From: Holophagales bacterium
GTDB lineage: Bacteria; Acidobacteriota; Thermoanaerobaculia; Multivoradales; Multivoraceae
Reading direction: 5' to 3'
Assembly (NCBI GenBank): GCA_009837085.1
Contig: VXUF01000070.1
Coordinates: 1 to 50,039, forward strand
DNA length: 50,039 nucleotides
Below, piece by piece: positions 2,400 through 10,437 of the stretch (position 1 is its first letter; each line of letters opens with the position of its first letter). The position numbers and the translations under genes were made by a program. The notes under the pieces are model-generated. The model did no database searches, was not told where the DNA came from, and worked only from the letters and a program-made list of their open reading frames with translations.

Positions 2400-5300
2400 T
2401 CAGGCTCCTACAGCAGGCTCGGCGCCCGCGGGTGGGGCCGCCGGAGGCTTCGCACCGTGGATCGCCAGTTGGGAACGGAAGTCGTTCAGGATGGCGTACA
2501 GCGACGGCACGAGCAACAGCGTGATCGCGGTCGCAAACAGGACCCCGAAGGCGAGCGACACCGCCATCGGGACCAGGAACTGGGCCTGGAAACTCCGCTC
2601 CAGCAGCAGGGGCAGCAGGCCCACGAACGTGGTCAGCGAGGTCAGCACGATCGGCCGGAAGCGAGCTGCGCCGGCATCGTGGATCGCCTGGTGGACCGGC
2701 ATGCCGATCTGGAGCCGCCGGTTGATGAAGTCGACCATGACCAGGGAGTCGTTGACGACGACGCCGGTCAGCGCGATCAGTCCGAGCAGCGACAGCATCG
2801 TCAGGTTGATGCCGATCAGCCGGTGGCCGATCACGGCGCCGATCAGCCCAAAGGGGATCGCGCTCATCACGATCAGCGGTTGCAGGTAGGACTTGAAGGG
2901 AATCGCGAGCAGTGCGTAGATCACGATCAGCGCCAGGCCGAGGGCCCGGAAGAGGCCCTCGAAGGTCTGACGCTGCTCCTCCTGCTCACCGGCGAACGAG
3001 AAGTCGACGCCGGGATAGCCGGACAGGATCGCGGGCAGCACGTTGGCCTCGAGGTCGCCGACGACCTCGTTCGCGGTCACGACGGCCGGGTCCACATCCG
3101 CCGTGATGTTCAGAACCCGCCTGCGGTCGATCCGCTGGATCGTCGCGAAGCCGCGGCCGAACTCGGCGCGGCCCGCGAAGGAGAACGGAACCTCGGCTCC
3201 GGCCGGCGTCCGGATCCGCATGTCCTCGAGCGACGCCAGGGTCTCGCGCTCGTCGGCCGGATAGCGCACCATGACCCGTACGTCGTCGCGACCGCGCTGG
3301 ATCCGTTGCGCCTCGGCGCCGTAGAAGCCCTGTCGCACCTGGCGGCCCAGATCCTCGAGACTGAGGCCCAGCGCTTCCGCCCGCTGGTCGATCTCCAGGC
3401 GGATCTCCCGCTTGCCGGCGCGGAAAGAGTCCGAGATGTCAAACACGCCCGGATAGTCGGCGAGACGCGCCTTTATCTCCTCGCCCACCGCGCGCAGATG
3501 GTCGAGGTTCCGGCCGGTGAGCTGGACGTCGACGGCCGAGCCGAAACTGACCAGGCTGGCCGTGTACTCGACTCTGACCGCGTCGGCGACCGGGCCCACC
3601 TTGTCGCGCCAGCGACGGGCGACCTCCGTGGCTCGAATCGTACGCTCCTGGGAGGACGCGAGTTCGATGTTCACTTCGCCCTGGTGCGGCGCCGCGACCG
3701 CCACCTCGAAGCCGGCGGTCGGTCCGCTCGCCTGCTGAAGCGCCGCGTAGGGCTGCGACCCGACCGTCGCCATCACGTGACGAAACAGGTCGGCGTGCCC
3801 CTCGGCCTCCAGTTCGGCTTCCAACTCGAACGCGGCCGCTTCGATGCGGCGCACGGCGGCCAGGGTGGTGGAGGCCGGCGTCCCCTGCGGCATGGTCAGC
3901 AGGACGACCGCGTTGTCGGCCTCCACGTCCGGAAAGAACTCGAACTTCATCCGACCCGAGAACACGTAGCCCGCGGTGATGAACAGGACCGCCAGACCGA
4001 TCGCAACCGTGGAGTATCGCCACTCGATCGCCCGCTCGATCAGCGGCCGGTAGCCGCGCTCGATCACCCACTTCATCCGTTTGGCGAAGAAACCCTGGAA
4101 GAGCGCCCAGCCCCAGAGAGACCGTCCGCCCTGTCCCTCTTCGTGCCGGTGGGTCAGGTGGGAGAGGTGGTTCGGCAGCACCAGCATGGACTCGATCAAT
4201 GAGAACGCCAGGCAACCGATGACGACGAGAGGGATCGTCCTCGCGATCGCTCCCGACGGGCCTTCGACGGAGTTGATCAGCGGTGAGAACGCTGCCAGCG
4301 TGGTGAGGATCGAGAAAGTGACGGGAGTCGCCACCTGGCGCGCGCCGTCGATCGCGGCACGCGGACCGGACTTGCCCATCTCGAAGTGGCGGTAGATGTT
4401 CTCGCCGACCACGATCGCGTCGTCGACGACGATGCCGAGTACGAGGATGAACGCGAACAGGGACATCACGTTGATCGAGACGTCGACCAGCGGCAGCAGG
4501 CCGAGGGCGCCCATGAACGACACCGCGATGCCCACGGACACCCAGAGGGCCAGCCGGAACTTCAGGAACAGCGCCAGCACCAGGAACACGAGCAGCAGAC
4601 CAAGCCGACCGCTTTCGATCAACACCCGCAGCCGGTCCTGCAGCGGCACCGTGTCATCGAGCCAGGTCGTCATCGAGAGGCCGGGCGGCAACGCCGCCTG
4701 GCGTTCCGCGACGAAGCCCTTGACCTGGCGCGCGAGCCGCAGGGCACTCTGGTCGCCGACCCGGTAGACCTGAACCAGAGCGACCGGCTGGCCGTCGAAC
4801 CGCGACGTGACGTCGGTCTCGGCAAAGCCGTCCCTCACCTCCGCTATGTCGCCGAGAACCAGGCGACTGCCGTCGGGCCGGGCTCGCAGCACGATGTCGC
4901 TGAACTCGGCGCCGCGGTACGCCTGGCCCATCGTCCGAAGCAGGATCTCCCCGCCCCGCGCCCTGACCGCGCCCCCCGGGAGGTCGACCGACGAGCGCCG
5001 GACCGCCAGCACGACTTCGTCGAAGGTCAGGCCGTACTGCCGCAGGGTGTCCTCGGAGACCTCGATCGAGATCTCGTACGGCCGCACCGCGTCGAGTTCG
5101 ACCTGGGTGATGTCCGGCAGGTCGGAGAGCCCTTCCCGGACCTCCTCCGCGACCGCCTTGAGCGCCCTCTCCTCCACGTCGCCGTAGATGGCGACGGTGA
5201 TCACGCGCCGGCGGATCAGCGCCTCCTGGATGATCGGCTTCTCGGTCTCCACGGGAAACGTCGTGATCGCGTCGATCCGCGACTTGACCTCGTCCAGCAC

Positions 5301-5612
5301 CTCGCGTGTGTCCGCGTCCGTCTCCAGCTCGATGACGACCGTGCCCGAACCTTCGGCGGCCGTCGACCGGATCGTGTCGACTCCCTCCAGGTCCTGCACC
5401 GCCTCCTCGATCCGGAGGCACACGCCCTGCTCGACCTCCTCGGGCGCCGCGCCCAGGTAGGGGACGTTCACCGTGATGCTCTGGGTCTCCATGCTCGGGA
5501 AGACCTCGATCGGGATTCCAGTGAGGGCGAGCACGCCCCAGGCCACGATCAGGACCATCAGCAGGTTCGCCGCTACCCCGTTGCGGGCGAACCAGGCGAT
5601 CATCCCGCTCAT
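2400..5612 (-). CDS. RND-family multidrug efflux pump, inner-membrane subunit (AcrB-like)
   Basis: Proton-driven export pump of the AcrB/MexB superfamily, 1070 residues, the usual size. It captures hydrophobic compounds in the periplasm or outer leaflet and passes them to the outer-membrane channel. It begins with MSGMIAWFARNGVAANLLMV, the first membrane helix. The fourth-helix proton-relay pair is present in LGIVVDDAIVVGENIYRH, and the symmetrical second half has LTGVVVNDSLVMVDFINRR. The start was chosen because ATG at 5612 overlaps the adaptor stop as ATGA; an open extension further upstream only shadows the adaptor gene. It is coupled to the adaptor before it and the deacylase after it. 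The drug or metabolite exported is unknown. Confidence 0.95.
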   Translation of the reverse strand: MSGMIAWFARNGVAANLLMVLIVAWGVLALTGIPIEVFPSMETQSITVNVPYLGAAPEEVEQGVCLRIEEAVQDLEGVDTIRSTAAEGSGTVVIELETDADTREVLDEVKSRIDAITTFPVETEKPIIQEALIRRRVITVAIYGDVEERALKAVAEEVREGLSDLPDITQVELDAVRPYEISIEVSEDTLRQYGLTFDEVVLAVRRSSVDLPGGAVRARGGEILLRTMGQAYRGAEFSDIVLRARPDGSRLVLGDIAEVRDGFAETDVTSRFDGQPVALVQVYRVGDQSALRLARQVKGFVAERQAALPPGLSMTTWLDDTVPLQDRLRVLIESGRLGLLLVFLVLALFLKFRLALWVSVGIAVSFMGALGLLPLVDVSINVMSLFAFILVLGIVVDDAIVVGENIYRHFEMGKSGPRAAIDGARQVATPVTFSILTTLAAFSPLINSVEGPSGAIARTIPLVVIGCLAFSLIESMLVLPNHLSHLTHRHEEGQGGRSLWGWALFQGFFAKRMKWVIERGYRPLIERAIEWRYSTVAIGLAVLFITAGYVFSGRMKFEFFPDVEADNAVVLLTMPQGTPASTTLAAVRRIEAAAFELEAELEAEGHADLFRHVMATVGSQPYAALQQASGPTAGFEVAVAAPHQGEVNIELASSQERTIRATEVARRWRDKVGPVADAVRVEYTASLVSFGSAVDVQLTGRNLDHLRAVGEEIKARLADYPGVFDISDSFRAGKREIRLEIDQRAEALGLSLEDLGRQVRQGFYGAEAQRIQRGRDDVRVMVRYPADERETLASLEDMRIRTPAGAEVPFSFAGRAEFGRGFATIQRIDRRRVLNITADVDPAVVTANEVVGDLEANVLPAILSGYPGVDFSFAGEQEEQRQTFEGLFRALGLALIVIYALLAIPFKSYLQPLIVMSAIPFGLIGAVIGHRLIGINLTMLSLLGLIALTGVVVNDSLVMVDFINRRLQIGMPVHQAIHDAGAARFRPIVLTSLTTFVGLLPLLLERSFQAQFLVPMAVSLAFGVLFATAITLLLVPSLYAILNDFRSQLAIHGAKPPAAPPAGAEPAVGA

Positions 5613-6778
5613 CGCGCCCTCCCGCGGGTACCGGTGGCCTCGGGCTCCGGTTGCGGCGTCACCCGCATGCCGTCGACCGCACTCTCGAGAATCGTGAGAC
5701 TGATCCGGTCTCCTGCCATCAGGCCGTCGGAGACGATGACGACCTCCGGGTCCGCGCGCAGGATCCCGACCTGACGCAGGACCAGCCTGCCGTCCTCCAC
5801 CAGCCACACCCGGTCCGCACCCACCAACGCCCCACGCGGCACCTGAAACACGGATTCCACCGATCGACCGACCACCTCCGCGTCGACGAACAGGCCCACC
5901 GAAAGCGGCGGCCGGCCGCCGGACGCCTGGTACGGATCGTCCACCCGCGCGATCAGGTTCACCATTCGGGTCGCCGGGTCGATCTCGCCGCCGACGCGCA
6001 CGATCCGGCCCACCCACTCGTGCCGGCCGCCGGCGAACTGCGCTCGCAGCAGCACCCGGGGCCCGGAGTCGCCCAGCTCGCTGCCCAGCGGCAGGTCGAG
6101 GAAAGCGAGCTCCGAGTCGGGCACCGGCAGGACGACCTCGGCGGCGTCCACTGCGTAGATCGTGGCCAGCGGCACGCCGCGGTTCACGAACTCGCCGCGG
6201 TCGACCCTCTTGGCGCGCAGCCTGCCGGCAAAGGGCGCCCGGATGGCCGTCCGCTCCAGATCCAGTTCGGCGCGCCTCTTGTTGGCGAGGGCCGCTTCCA
6301 CCTGCGCCCTCGCCTCGGCCAACTGCGGCTGGCGTAGCACCAGGGGCCCCGGCTCACCGTCGGCTCCCAGTTCCTCCCACTCTTCGCGGGCGATATCGGC
6401 CTCCGCCTGCTCCCGAGCCAGCCCGACTCCCGCCTGCGCGAGCGCGGCCCGGGCGCTCGCCAGCGCCAGTTCGTAGTCGCGCCGGTCAAGCCGCAGCAGG
6501 ATCTCGCCGGGATCGAAGAAGCCGCCGACCTCGAAGCTCTCCGCCGTCCAGACGATCGTGCCCGCGACCTCCGAGACCAGGTCCGCCTCGGTCACCGGAA
6601 TGACCGACCCCTGGGACCGAACGCCCAGGTCGACTTCAGTCGGCGTCACCGCCAGCACGCGGACCGGCGGCGGCGCGATCTCCCTCGGCGCCGTCTCGAC
6701 CACAGGCCTGGACCGGACCAGACCGACCACCACCAGAGCGGCCACCGCCAGAATCGCGGCCGGCAGGGTCCACTTCAT
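5609..6778 (-). CDS. RND efflux periplasmic adaptor (membrane fusion protein, HlyD/AcrA family)
   Basis: Periplasmic adaptor that links the RND pump to the outer-membrane channel, about 389 residues. One N-terminal membrane anchor (AAILAVAALVVVGLV) is followed by the lipoyl half-motif (SEVAGTIVWTAESFEVGGFFDPGEILLRLD). Next comes an alpha-helical hairpin rich in Ala, Glu and Arg, then the second lipoyl half (ERTAIRAPFAGRLRAKRVD) and beta-barrel domains. ATG at 6778 is preferred; an in-frame GTG at 6781 is possible. The start lies 5 bases after the outer-membrane gene's stop, and the stop overlaps the pump start by ATGA, so all three subunits should be made in step. Confidence 0.93.
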   Translation of the reverse strand: MKWTLPAAILAVAALVVVGLVRSRPVVETAPREIAPPPVRVLAVTPTEVDLGVRSQGSVIPVTEADLVSEVAGTIVWTAESFEVGGFFDPGEILLRLDRRDYELALASARAALAQAGVGLAREQAEADIAREEWEELGADGEPGPLVLRQPQLAEARAQVEAALANKRRAELDLERTAIRAPFAGRLRAKRVDRGEFVNRGVPLATIYAVDAAEVVLPVPDSELAFLDLPLGSELGDSGPRVLLRAQFAGGRHEWVGRIVRVGGEIDPATRMVNLIARVDDPYQASGGRPPLSVGLFVDAEVVGRSVESVFQVPRGALVGADRVWLVEDGRLVLRQVGILRADPEVVIVSDGLMAGDRISLTILESAVDGMRVTPQPEPEATGTRGRAR

Positions 6779-6783
6779 CACGA

Positions 6784-8292
6784 TCAGGGCCCCCCGCTCG
6801 CGGCCGGCGCGGCCGGTTCCGCGTAGACGCCGCCGCCCAGCGCCAGGATCAGGTCCGTCCGCGACTCCAGCTGCTGGCGTCGGGCCGCGAGCAACTGGCT
6901 CTCCGACTGAAACGACGTCCGCTGGCTGTCGAGTACCTGCAGGTAGCCGACGAGTCCCTCCCGGTAGCGGCCTTCCGCCAGACGCTCCGCTTCCCGGCTC
7001 TCCATCGCGGCTCGCTCGAGCGCGGCCGTTCGGGTCTCGAGCATCCGTTCGGCCGCGAGGCCCGACTCCACCTCAGAGAAGGCCTGGAGCGCCGTCTGCA
7101 ACCAGCTTGCTTCCGCCGCGCCCAGTCCGGCTTCCACCAGGTCGCGGCCGGCGCGCAGGCGGCCTCCGGACAGCAGCGGCTGGAGCAGGCCGGCGGCGAG
7201 ACTCCAGACCGAGAAGTCTCCGTCCAGCAGGTCCCGGAGCTCGCCACTCGACGTGCCCGCCGACCCGTTCAGCGTGAAGCTCGGATAGAGCGCCCGGTGG
7301 GCGGCGCGGAGCCGCTCCGAGGCGGCGACCGCCCGGTACTCCGCCGCCCGCAGATCGGGCCGCCGCCCCAGCAGGGCGGCCGGGACTCCGGTTTTCGGCA
7401 GGGGCGGAAGCTCGGGCAACCCCGCGGCCGCCTCGATCTCACCGGAGGGATAGCGGCCGAGCAGCACCTCCATCTGCCGGCGCAGTCCGTCGAGGGTCTG
7501 CCGCTGCGCCGCCAGCGAGGCCTCCACGGTCGCGACCTGGGTTCGCGCCTGCCGTACCTCGAGCGCCGTCGCGACACCGCGCCGGTAGCGGGCCTCGACG
7601 CGATCGCGCGTCCGTTCGCGGCTGGCCAGGGTTCGCTCGGCCAGTTCCACCTGCTGCACCGCCTCGACCGTGCCGAAGTACACCTTCGCGAGCTGGCCGG
7701 CGATCGAAAGCCGGGCGCCATCGAGGTCGGCGGAGGAAGCGGCCGCCTCGGCCAGGGAGGCCGCGGTCAGTGCGCCGAGTCGGTCCCACAGGTCGACCTC
7801 CCAACGGACGTTGAGCGCCAGACCGTAGGACGTGAAGGCGAAACTCCGCACGCCGCCGGGCTCGAAGCCGGGAATGGGAATCGGGATCGCTTCCGTGAGT
7901 CCGCTCTGCGCCGTGTTCTGCTTGCGCCGCCCGGGGTCGAGCGCCGCTTCGATCTCGGGGTTGCGCGCGGCGCCGTCGAGCCGGGCCTGAGCGAGCGCGA
8001 CATCGACGTTCAGAGCCGCGGCGCGGAGGCTGGAGTTGTGCTCCAGCCCCTCGACGATCAACCTGGACAGCAGGGGATCGCCGAACTCCGTCCACCACTC
8101 CGCGTCGACGGGACCAGCCTCGACCCGTGGTTCCGGAGCGCGCGCATCATCGCCGTAGCCGGCCGGCGCCGGCGCCTCGAGTTCCGGCGTCCGAACCCCG
8201 CTACAGCCCAGCAGCGCCAGGGCGCCGACCATGAGCGCCCACCAGGCGCGGTTCTGGCCAGGCGCGGCCCTGGAGAGTCGGGGAACGCTCAT
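6784..8292 (-). CDS. Outer-membrane efflux lipoprotein (OprM/NodT/TolC family)
   Basis: Outer-membrane channel subunit of the tripartite pump, 502 residues, about the size of OprM. The signal peptide ends in a lipobox-like ALALLGC, so the mature protein probably carries an N-terminal lipid. Two repeats of the outer-membrane efflux domain are visible: long Ala/Arg/Glu helices with LAEAAASSADLDGARLSI and RYRRGVATALEVRQART in the first, and RLAEGRYREGLVGYLQVLD in the second. The start at 8292 gives an ordinary signal peptide; longer in-frame versions run over the divergent amidase gene. It is the first gene of the efflux operon, and its promoter should lie in 8293-8373. Confidence 0.92.
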   Translation of the reverse strand: MSVPRLSRAAPGQNRAWWALMVGALALLGCSGVRTPELEAPAPAGYGDDARAPEPRVEAGPVDAEWWTEFGDPLLSRLIVEGLEHNSSLRAAALNVDVALAQARLDGAARNPEIEAALDPGRRKQNTAQSGLTEAIPIPIPGFEPGGVRSFAFTSYGLALNVRWEVDLWDRLGALTAASLAEAAASSADLDGARLSIAGQLAKVYFGTVEAVQQVELAERTLASRERTRDRVEARYRRGVATALEVRQARTQVATVEASLAAQRQTLDGLRRQMEVLLGRYPSGEIEAAAGLPELPPLPKTGVPAALLGRRPDLRAAEYRAVAASERLRAAHRALYPSFTLNGSAGTSSGELRDLLDGDFSVWSLAAGLLQPLLSGGRLRAGRDLVEAGLGAAEASWLQTALQAFSEVESGLAAERMLETRTAALERAAMESREAERLAEGRYREGLVGYLQVLDSQRTSFQSESQLLAARRQQLESRTDLILALGGGVYAEPAAPAASGGP

Positions 8293-8373: not shown

Positions 8374-9369
8374 ATGTCCGACCGGCGCTTCAAACGCGGC
8401 CTGATCGAGGCCGCTGTGCGCGACAACGAGACCCACGGCCCCACGCCGCTCAGGTCGCGCGACGAACCGGACGCCGGGCCGGTTCGCCGGTCGCGCAGGG
8501 TCTCGCCATGGAGCCTCCTGCTGCTGCCCATCGCTGCTGCCGCCGCCCTCGCCTACCTGGAGCTGAACCGCCCGGCGCCGGACCTTCCGCCCACGGCGGA
8601 GGTGGATGGGCCCGTACAGCCGCCCGAGATCCTCTTCACCGGCCCACCGGAGGCCGTCGACGTGAGCGTCTTCCCGCTTCCCGTCGAGCGAATCGTCCTC
8701 GACCCCGGCCACGGCGGCTCCTCTCCCGGCACGGCCGCCGGTGGCCTGACCGAAAAGGCCCTCGCCCTCGACATCGCCTACCGGCTGCGCAACCTGCTGG
8801 ACGATCGCTACCGGGTCGCGATGACTCGGGAAGCCGACATGAACGTCGCCCTCGACCACCGCACTCTGATCGCCAACCGGGCCGGCGCCGACGTGTTCGT
8901 TTCGATTCACGTGAACTGGTTGCCGGCGAACAGGGCCTGCGGCGTCGAGACCTACTATCTCGGCCCCACGGATGATCCCGAGCTTTCCGCGCTCGCCGAG
9001 CGCGAGAACTCGGAAGCTCAGGGATACTCCCTCGGCGACCTTCGCCGGCTCCTCGACGGCGTGTACGCCCAGGCTCGGCAGGACGACAGCCGGGCCCTGG
9101 CGACCGCGATTCAGGCGGCACTCTTCGTCCGCCTGGGGGCCGAGAACCCCGAGCTCCGGAACCGCGGCGTCAAGTCCGCGCCCTTCGTGGTCCTGATCGG
9201 GGCGGAGATGCCAGCCGTACTGGCCGAGGTTTCCTGCCTCTCCGACGCGAAAGAGGTCGAGCGGTTGCGGAACGAGAGCTACCTTCAGTCAATCGCCGAA
9301 GCCCTGGACGCGGGTATCCGGGACTACGCCGAGTCTCTACTGCCCAAAGCTAAGCTCTCCGGCGCCTGA
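8374..9369 (+). CDS. N-acetylmuramoyl-L-alanine amidase (AmiC type, Amidase_3), membrane-anchored
   Basis: Zinc amidase that cuts the bond between N-acetylmuramic acid and the peptide stem of peptidoglycan, normally in cell separation or wall remodelling. It has 331 residues. An N-terminal arginine-rich cytoplasmic stretch is followed by one membrane helix (SLLLLPIAAAAALAYL, residues about 47-62) and a linker. The catalytic domain follows: IVLDPGHGG (first zinc His), GLTEKALALDIAYRL (zinc Glu), the TREAD segment, FVSIHVNW (second His) and a C-terminal VLAEVSCLSDAKE strand with the catalytic Glu. The anchor places the enzyme on the outer face of the inner membrane. Only 9 bases separate it from the actin-like gene downstream, so the two are likely co-transcribed. 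Confidence 0.9.
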   Translation: MSDRRFKRGLIEAAVRDNETHGPTPLRSRDEPDAGPVRRSRRVSPWSLLLLPIAAAAALAYLELNRPAPDLPPTAEVDGPVQPPEILFTGPPEAVDVSVFPLPVERIVLDPGHGGSSPGTAAGGLTEKALALDIAYRLRNLLDDRYRVAMTREADMNVALDHRTLIANRAGADVFVSIHVNWLPANRACGVETYYLGPTDDPELSALAERENSEAQGYSLGDLRRLLDGVYAQARQDDSRALATAIQAALFVRLGAENPELRNRGVKSAPFVVLIGAEMPAVLAEVSCLSDAKEVERLRNESYLQSIAEALDAGIRDYAESLLPKAKLSGA

Positions 9370-9378
9370 GGCCGAACG

Positions 9379-10437
9379 ATGACCACGCAGACCACCGCCC
9401 CGCCCAAGCCGCCGGTGCTCAAGGTGGGCATCGACCTGGGGACGTCGCGCAGTTCGATCTCCGCCGCGAATGGCGAGCGCCACATGGTAAGGAGCTACGT
9501 TGGCTGGCCTCGGGACATGGTCGCCCGAAAGGTTCTCAAACGTGACGTGCTCGTGGGCATCGAAGCCCTGGAGAAACGACCGATGCTGGACCTGCGCCGG
9601 CCACTCGAGCGGGGCCTGATCAAGGAAGGATCGGCCCGTGACGAGCAGGCTGTGCGCGAGATCGTCCGGCGGCTCCTCGAACTGGCGGTGCCCGAGGGAC
9701 GGAACCCGAGGTCAGCGATTCACGCCGTCGTCGGTGTGCCGGCCGAGACGCTCCGCGTGAACCGCCAGAACCTGCGGCGCATCCTCGACGGCCAGGTCGC
9801 CAGCACGATGATCGTCTCGGAACCGTTCGCCGTCGCCTACGGTCTGGATGCCCTGGTCCATACGATGGTCGTGGACATCGGCGCGGGCACGACGGACTTG
9901 TGCGTCCTCATGGGCCGCTTTCCGACCGAGAACGACCAGCGGACCCTGACCGTCGCGGGTGACGCCGTCGACCTCAACCTGCACGCGCGCATCGAGGAAC
10001 GCTTCCCCGACGCATCGGTATCGATCCACATGGCGCGCGCGTGGAAGGAAAAGTACTCCTTCGTGGGCGGAGGCGGTCCGGTCATCGTCGATGCGCCCGT
10101 AAACGGCAGACCGACCCGAATCGACATCACGGAGCCGATGCGCACCGCCTGCGAGAGTCTCCTGGAACCGCTACGTGAGACGATGCTCGATCTGATCGCG
10201 AGGGTCGAACCAGAGTACCAGGCCCAGGTCCGGAACAACGTGATTCTGACTGGCGGATCCGGGCTCATCCGGGGCCTTGGCGCCGCCCTGCAGAGCGCGC
10301 TCGGCGAACTGGGCGGCGGACGCGTACGCGTGGTCAAGGATCCGGTCTTCGTCGGCTCCGACGGCGGCCTGACCCTGGCCAACGACGTCCGGGACGAGGA
10401 CTGGCTGCGACTGGCCGGACCCCGCGGCGATCAGTAA
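9379..10437 (+). CDS. MamK/MreB-like bacterial actin
   Basis: Actin-fold ATPase of 352 residues, expected to form filaments in the cytoplasm. Nucleotide-binding signatures are present: phosphate-1 GIDLGTSRSS (residues 17-26), phosphate-2 VVDIGAGTTDLC (164-175) and the adenosine motif ILTGGSGLIRG near 290. Compared from memory with known families, it fits magnetosome MamK better than MreB. The segment SEPFAVAYGLDALV, the stretch KEKYSFVGG, the C-terminal EPEYQAQVRNN and the spacing between them all follow MamK. MamK positions magnetosomes, but no other mam gene is in this window. The partner here is a peptidoglycan amidase, which suggests a wall- or shape-related role (inference). The stop overlaps the convergent methyltransferase gene by 7 bases. 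Confidence 0.8.
   Translation: MTTQTTAPPKPPVLKVGIDLGTSRSSISAANGERHMVRSYVGWPRDMVARKVLKRDVLVGIEALEKRPMLDLRRPLERGLIKEGSARDEQAVREIVRRLLELAVPEGRNPRSAIHAVVGVPAETLRVNRQNLRRILDGQVASTMIVSEPFAVAYGLDALVHTMVVDIGAGTTDLCVLMGRFPTENDQRTLTVAGDAVDLNLHARIEERFPDASVSIHMARAWKEKYSFVGGGGPVIVDAPVNGRPTRIDITEPMRTACESLLEPLRETMLDLIARVEPEYQAQVRNNVILTGGSGLIRGLGAALQSALGELGGGRVRVVKDPVFVGSDGGLTLANDVRDEDWLRLAGPRGDQ

Follow-up and report, generated by a model that had tools for sequence, protein, structure and literature searches.

Among bacterial actins, MreB guides the synthesis of the wall and FtsA guides division. In the FtsN-FtsA and RodZ-MreB systems, a single-pass membrane protein binds the actin homologue through a short cytoplasmic part, and its outer part acts on the wall or close to it. 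In Escherichia coli, FtsEX together with FtsZ forms a cytoplasmic machine that controls an amidase in the periplasm. MamK-like actins also exist without magnetosomes: BeeR, from Verrucomicrobiota, is a MamK-like actin of non-magnetotactic bacteria whose function is unknown (PMC11929497). A second, non-MreB actin with a dedicated neighbouring partner occurs in filamentous cyanobacteria, where FcmB-FcmC acts on cell shape (PMC12645912). The locus described here shares features with each of these systems, and its actin is paired with a wall amidase.

The window, by which we mean the whole stretch of 50,039 nucleotides that was analyzed (contig VXUF01000070.1), comes from a Holophagales bacterium of the Acidobacteriota whose genome is 4.3 Mb and 97% complete. 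An earlier reading of the letters alone (the sequence-only reading) had reported an amidase gene and, 9 bases beyond it, an actin gene, and we found both open reading frames at the same positions, encoding proteins of 331 and 352 aa on the same + strand with 9 bases from stop to start. The flanking genes on both sides read the opposite way when inspected by eye, and the pair therefore stands alone. Divergent from it, at 2400-8290 on the - strand, are open reading frames that by eye resemble an RND efflux pump, an adaptor and an outer-membrane channel. The features of the pair are listed below with the evidence for each.

8374..9369, + strand: membrane-anchored N-acetylmuramoyl-L-alanine amidase (Amidase_3), partner of the actin; PF01520, E 7e-44, and ortholog co-occurrence
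8401..8427, + strand: conserved cytoplasmic tail motif LIEAAVRDN, residues 10-18, candidate actin docking site; alignment and pattern count
8509..8565, + strand: predicted single transmembrane helix, about residues 46-64, after an Arg-rich stretch; hydrophobic 19-mer with mean Kyte-Doolittle 1.78, and helix 46-64 in the model
8692..9321, + strand: predicted periplasmic zinc amidase domain with invariant His113, Glu127, His179 and Glu285; Pfam range and alignment
9379..10437, + strand: MamK-like actin of the amidase-linked clade; profile, solved-structure, model-fold and tree comparisons

The sequence-only reading had called the actin MamK-like, and this description held up by both sequence and predicted fold. 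Among solved structures compared by sequence, MamK (5jyg) scored 264 bits, BeeR (8r2n) 135 bits and MreB 39 bits. Identity to MamK is about 41% over the full length, the nucleotide-site motifs are kept, and the three segments originally singled out as MamK-type do align with MamK, as SEPF.V.YGLD, KE.(Y/F)SFVG and (Q/E)PEYQA.V..N. The predicted structure had a mean pLDDT of 90, and a fold search with it returned the MamK filament 5ljv as the best match (Z 42.8, rmsd 1.8, 324 residues aligned), ahead of BeeR (Z 39.7) and, after it, eukaryotic actin (Z 34.7 or less). The resemblance to BeeR is more distant: identity is about 30%, the NCBIfam BeeR profile NF053558, whose cut-off is 530, gives 196 bits, and about 13 residues stand ahead of the first strand where BeeR has an N-terminal extension of 30-50 residues. 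The NCBIfam MreB profile gave 56 bits, and the MamK profile NF040964 gave 350 bits, below its cut-off of 400. No plasmid-borne relatives were found among 72,556 plasmids.

We examined how consistently the two genes occur together. The actin was present in 41 of 41 genomes in a first search of relatives, and within the window's class it is carried by 88 of 111 genomes. The same 88 have an ortholog of the amidase (E 1e-48 or better), split in one of them (G051), and it adjoins the actin in 86, as judged by matching the contigs of two search tables by eye; only in G016 (L093) and G066 do the two genes lie on different contigs. With 86 of 88 actin-bearing genomes having the amidase alongside, the pairing in the class is far beyond chance. 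The ortholog is absent from all 23 class genomes that lack the actin, a co-absence that partly reflects one event per lineage since neighbours can vanish in one deletion or one assembly gap. The only amidase retained by those 23 genomes is of another kind, encoded by an open frame about 500-600 residues long. Outside the class the actin is rare in the phylum, with 3 carriers among 297 genomes sampled, and all 3 also have the amidase. Distances among the actins and among the amidases correlate closely (Mantel r 0.91 for 88 pairs, and 0.88 when the window's genus is left out).

A wider scan that took one genome per species and used MamK as the lead sequence yielded 80 loci of two kinds: MamK-type actins, none of which had an amidase match at the locus, and window-like actins with an amidase directly upstream (25 of 25). 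The amidase-linked actins came from Nitrospirota, Desulfobulbaceae, Desulfobacteraceae, Pseudomonadota, Aminicenantes and Acidobacteria. In a sample of 197 Nitrospirota genomes, 15 carried an amidase-linked actin, each with the amidase upstream, and none of 32 genomes tested had both actin types. Among 64 measurable pairs, most of the genes overlap or stand within 30 bases of each other. The sequence-only reading had been prepared to give way if the pairing were missing from all relatives; we found it to be near-universal. Two Latescibacterota loci (L160:3924-5591 and L177:1876-3635) hold a MamK-like actin followed by a coiled-coil protein; they were among the MamK-type loci with no amidase match, and they had no MamB match over the cut-off.

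The partner amidase carries a Pfam Amidase_3 domain at residues 107-316. Its first 45 or so residues lead into a basic stretch and a single hydrophobic helix, after which come a variable linker and the zinc domain. The N-terminal tail is predicted to lie inside and the enzyme domain outside, by the positive-inside rule applied to the Arg-rich stretch that precedes the helix. Its structure model had a mean pLDDT of 68, too weak for a fold search and of use for little beyond hints on the helix and topology. H113, E127, H179 and E285, the zinc-site positions of the Amidase_3 family, do not vary in the alignment of partner amidases. The domain, the predicted helix and the conserved pairing together bear out the earlier description of a membrane-anchored wall amidase tied to the actin. 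The catalytic domain is also that of E. coli AmiA, AmiB and AmiC, which work with the LytM activators EnvC and NlpD and with FtsEX. The partner amidase differs from these in being itself membrane-anchored, in its conserved cytoplasmic tail and its actin neighbour, and in scoring only 67-80 bits against NCBIfam AmiA/AmiB/AmiC cut-offs of 400-700. Class genomes bear a further amidase, of the signal-peptide type, for general use.

Within the predicted cytoplasmic tail is a short motif, which reads ILRGVYEENLRI in Nitrospirota, ILRGVYDENLRI or ILQGVHEENK in Desulfobacterota, MLRGVYEENLRL in Pseudomonadota, MLQDIFEENL in Aminicenantes and LLREAVEENLDT-like in the Acidobacteriota class, with LIEAAVRDNE in the window. 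Its Asn (Asn18 in the window) is invariant in a 23-sequence alignment of partner amidases, and the periplasmic linker, unlike the motif, shows no conservation. Of 85 partner amidases, 82 have the tail pattern, placed 14-29 residues ahead of the helix, and the expected number for shuffled tails is 0.15; this comparison overstates independence because the pattern was written from the family itself and the sequences are related. It was found in none of 13 other class amidases, all of the second, signal-peptide type. The window genus has a weak version of the motif: a profile built from the other phyla fails to recognize it, and the looser aligned pattern holds.

We did not find a third gene common to all carriers; the neighbours are lineage-specific, which leaves the amidase as the sole constant partner of the actin. 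The gene after the actin in nine Nitrospirota loci encodes a related protein with receiver, membrane and SPOR segments, and the SPOR domain scored E 4e-14 and 3e-15 in the two such proteins that were scanned. This gene was seen in Nitrospirota only. Two of the loci are given here.

L172:7018-8244, Nitrospirota: protein with receiver, membrane segment and C-terminal SPOR domain, downstream of the actin
L165:7030-8181, Nitrospirota: protein of the same build, downstream of the actin

SPOR domains bind amidase-processed peptidoglycan, and Sinorhizobium depends on a SPOR protein and on AmiC to select the new pole reliably as its growth zone (PMC7822825). The presence of a SPOR protein as third gene in Nitrospirota thus favours division or pole formation as the process involved.

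We propose that the amidase and actin genes encode one module. The actin, of the MamK/BeeR type and not MreB, would use ATP to assemble a filament beneath the inner membrane. The amidase would be a single-pass membrane protein with its enzyme domain in the periplasm and its N-terminal 45 residues in the cytoplasm, where the short amphipathic tail motif (residues 10-18 in the window) would bind the filament. The filament would then place, cluster or switch the amidase and so set where septal or new-pole peptidoglycan is split. The reading we favour, with moderate confidence, is that the filament attaches to the tail of the amidase and either positions or gates the cutting of peptidoglycan; the site of cutting is probably that of division, which we hold less firmly. 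The sequence-only reading had suggested that a filament determines where wall hydrolysis occurs or controls it, and its suggestion stands as something we infer from the conserved amidase tail and the Nitrospirota SPOR gene; docking, polymerization and a division role are likewise proposals. The tail motif could instead bind lipid or a divisome protein.

The relation between the two proteins might also run the other way, with the amidase serving the filament as a membrane anchor that ties actin to wall. The main job of the pair would then be shape, curvature or polarity, and hydrolysis would be only a local opening. The same anatomy of cytoplasmic tail, one membrane helix and wall-acting enzyme fits an anchor as well, and so does the presence of this actin alongside a distinct MreB, whose gene in the window's genome is on contig C101. 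However, the zinc-site residues are invariant, which indicates that catalysis is under selection and which a pure anchor would not need, and we regard this account as unlikely. It is also conceivable, and in our judgement likewise unlikely, that both proteins have a part in division or growth and share a transcript for the sake of dosage, with no contact between them. Tight spacing and stop-start overlaps would account for the coupling without any binding, but they leave unexplained why an otherwise periplasmic enzyme has a conserved cytoplasmic motif, and why the pair is lost jointly while the other amidase stays. A filament that docks on the tail and directs wall cutting is still the account we prefer.

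Because the nearest solved structure is MamK, we also considered whether the actin could be a magnetosome MamK whose gene cluster lies elsewhere or is missing from the assembly. A profile search of the window's genome for MamB (NF033616) gave no match, nor did a search for magnetochrome (PF18509), which had no positive control. The MamB model was run over 43 genomes as a control. It passed its cut-off of 350 bits only among MamK carriers, where known magnetotactic genomes exceed it, with 385-473 bits in 9 of 16, and reached at most 177 bits in 11 Acidobacteriota genomes and 14 other carriers of the pair. The absence of any mam gene, noted at first for the vicinity of the pair, can thus be extended to the whole genome for MamB, with working positive controls, and for magnetochrome. 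Given a score under the MamK cut-off and a genome without MamB, the window actin is, on these profile searches, not a magnetosome MamK; its placement in a separate clade (see below) argues the same way, and we judge a hidden or lost magnetosome cluster to be very improbable.

The MamK profile itself requires some care. Several amidase-linked relatives, from Nitrospirota, Desulfobulbaceae and others, score 415-436 bits and so exceed the cut-off of 400, which means that NF040964 does not separate them from MamK. The following are amidase-linked actins in this range, from genomes without a MamB match over the cut-off.

L172:5965-6993: amidase-linked actin over the MamK cut-off
L155:5980-6993: amidase-linked actin over the MamK cut-off
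L154:6001-7005: amidase-linked actin over the MamK cut-off
L174:5968-6990: amidase-linked actin over the MamK cut-off

Amidase-linked actins of Nitrospirota, Desulfobulbaceae and Pseudomonadota will consequently be annotated as MamK though they do not adjoin magnetosome genes. At eleven other Nitrospirota loci (L246-L256) we observed MamK-type actins in genomes with at least two MamB-like transporters, mostly within about 10 kb. These transporters score 210-330 bits, and the cut-off of 350 for NF033616 would therefore miss Nitrospirota magnetosome genes. In Desulfobulbaceae and other deltaproteobacterial genomes, we observed an actin, a small membrane coiled-coil protein and a second actin in a row (L142:4289-7011, L124:5971-8706 and L123:4265-7014). 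These double-actin loci branch within the MamK group, the genomes tested had no MamB match above 200 bits, and the loci are possibly another non-magnetosome relative of MamK.

In a tree of 91 proteins, the amidase-linked actins formed one clade (96/97) and MamK another (94/97), with eight MreB entries splitting off at 100/100. A divergent MreB for rod shape, suggested by MreB_Mbl being the top Pfam match (E 8e-17), is extremely improbable, since the genome has its own MreB and the trees, which were named beforehand as the place where membership of MreB would appear, keep the window actin and MreB apart with full support. We enlarged the tree with the eleven Nitrospirota MamK-type actins described above. 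The amidase-linked clade became firmer (bootstrap/SH-aLRT 100/98), and the added Nitrospirota MamK lay closer to it than to the remaining MamK. The first trees had suggested that MamK is simply the sister of the amidase-linked clade, a placement that we withdrew after this addition. Placing all magnetosome MamK together, with the amidase-linked clade excluded, was not rejected (AU p = 0.418), nor was the opposite arrangement. Removal of BeeR leaves the relation of the amidase-linked clade to magnetosome MamK unsettled, and the root is unsure because the long BeeR branch meets the MreB outgroup. That the amidase-linked actins form one distinct clade is a solid result of these sequence trees, in which MamK proteins are the closest relatives of the window actin outside its own clade. 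The further idea that the window actin is ancestral to MamK is one of three placements, with sister and derived, that are all compatible with the constraint test.

Literature searches, mostly outside subscription papers and preprints, returned no description of an amidase-actin pair, and for no MamK-like actin did they reveal a partner hydrolase of its own that bears a conserved tail in the cytoplasm. FcmB-FcmC differs from the present pair in deriving from plasmid-partitioning actins and in having a ParR-like partner (PMC12645912). The outer parts of the proteins in FtsN-FtsA and RodZ-MreB are not hydrolases, whereas that of the partner amidase is a wall-cutting enzyme. In its fullest form, the proposal would describe a new cytoskeletal class, in which a cytoplasmic actin filament directly holds and gates a membrane-anchored amidase through a tail motif, with wall control coming first and the alignment of magnetosomes by MamK as a later use; we put this forward as a doubtful possibility. 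If the module does work as proposed, a dedicated actin with a wall hydrolase across several phyla would be a new cytoplasmic route to the control of wall cutting. The nearest relatives of MamK include actins of non-magnetic cells with a partner in the envelope, and the origin of magnetosome alignment thereby becomes testable.
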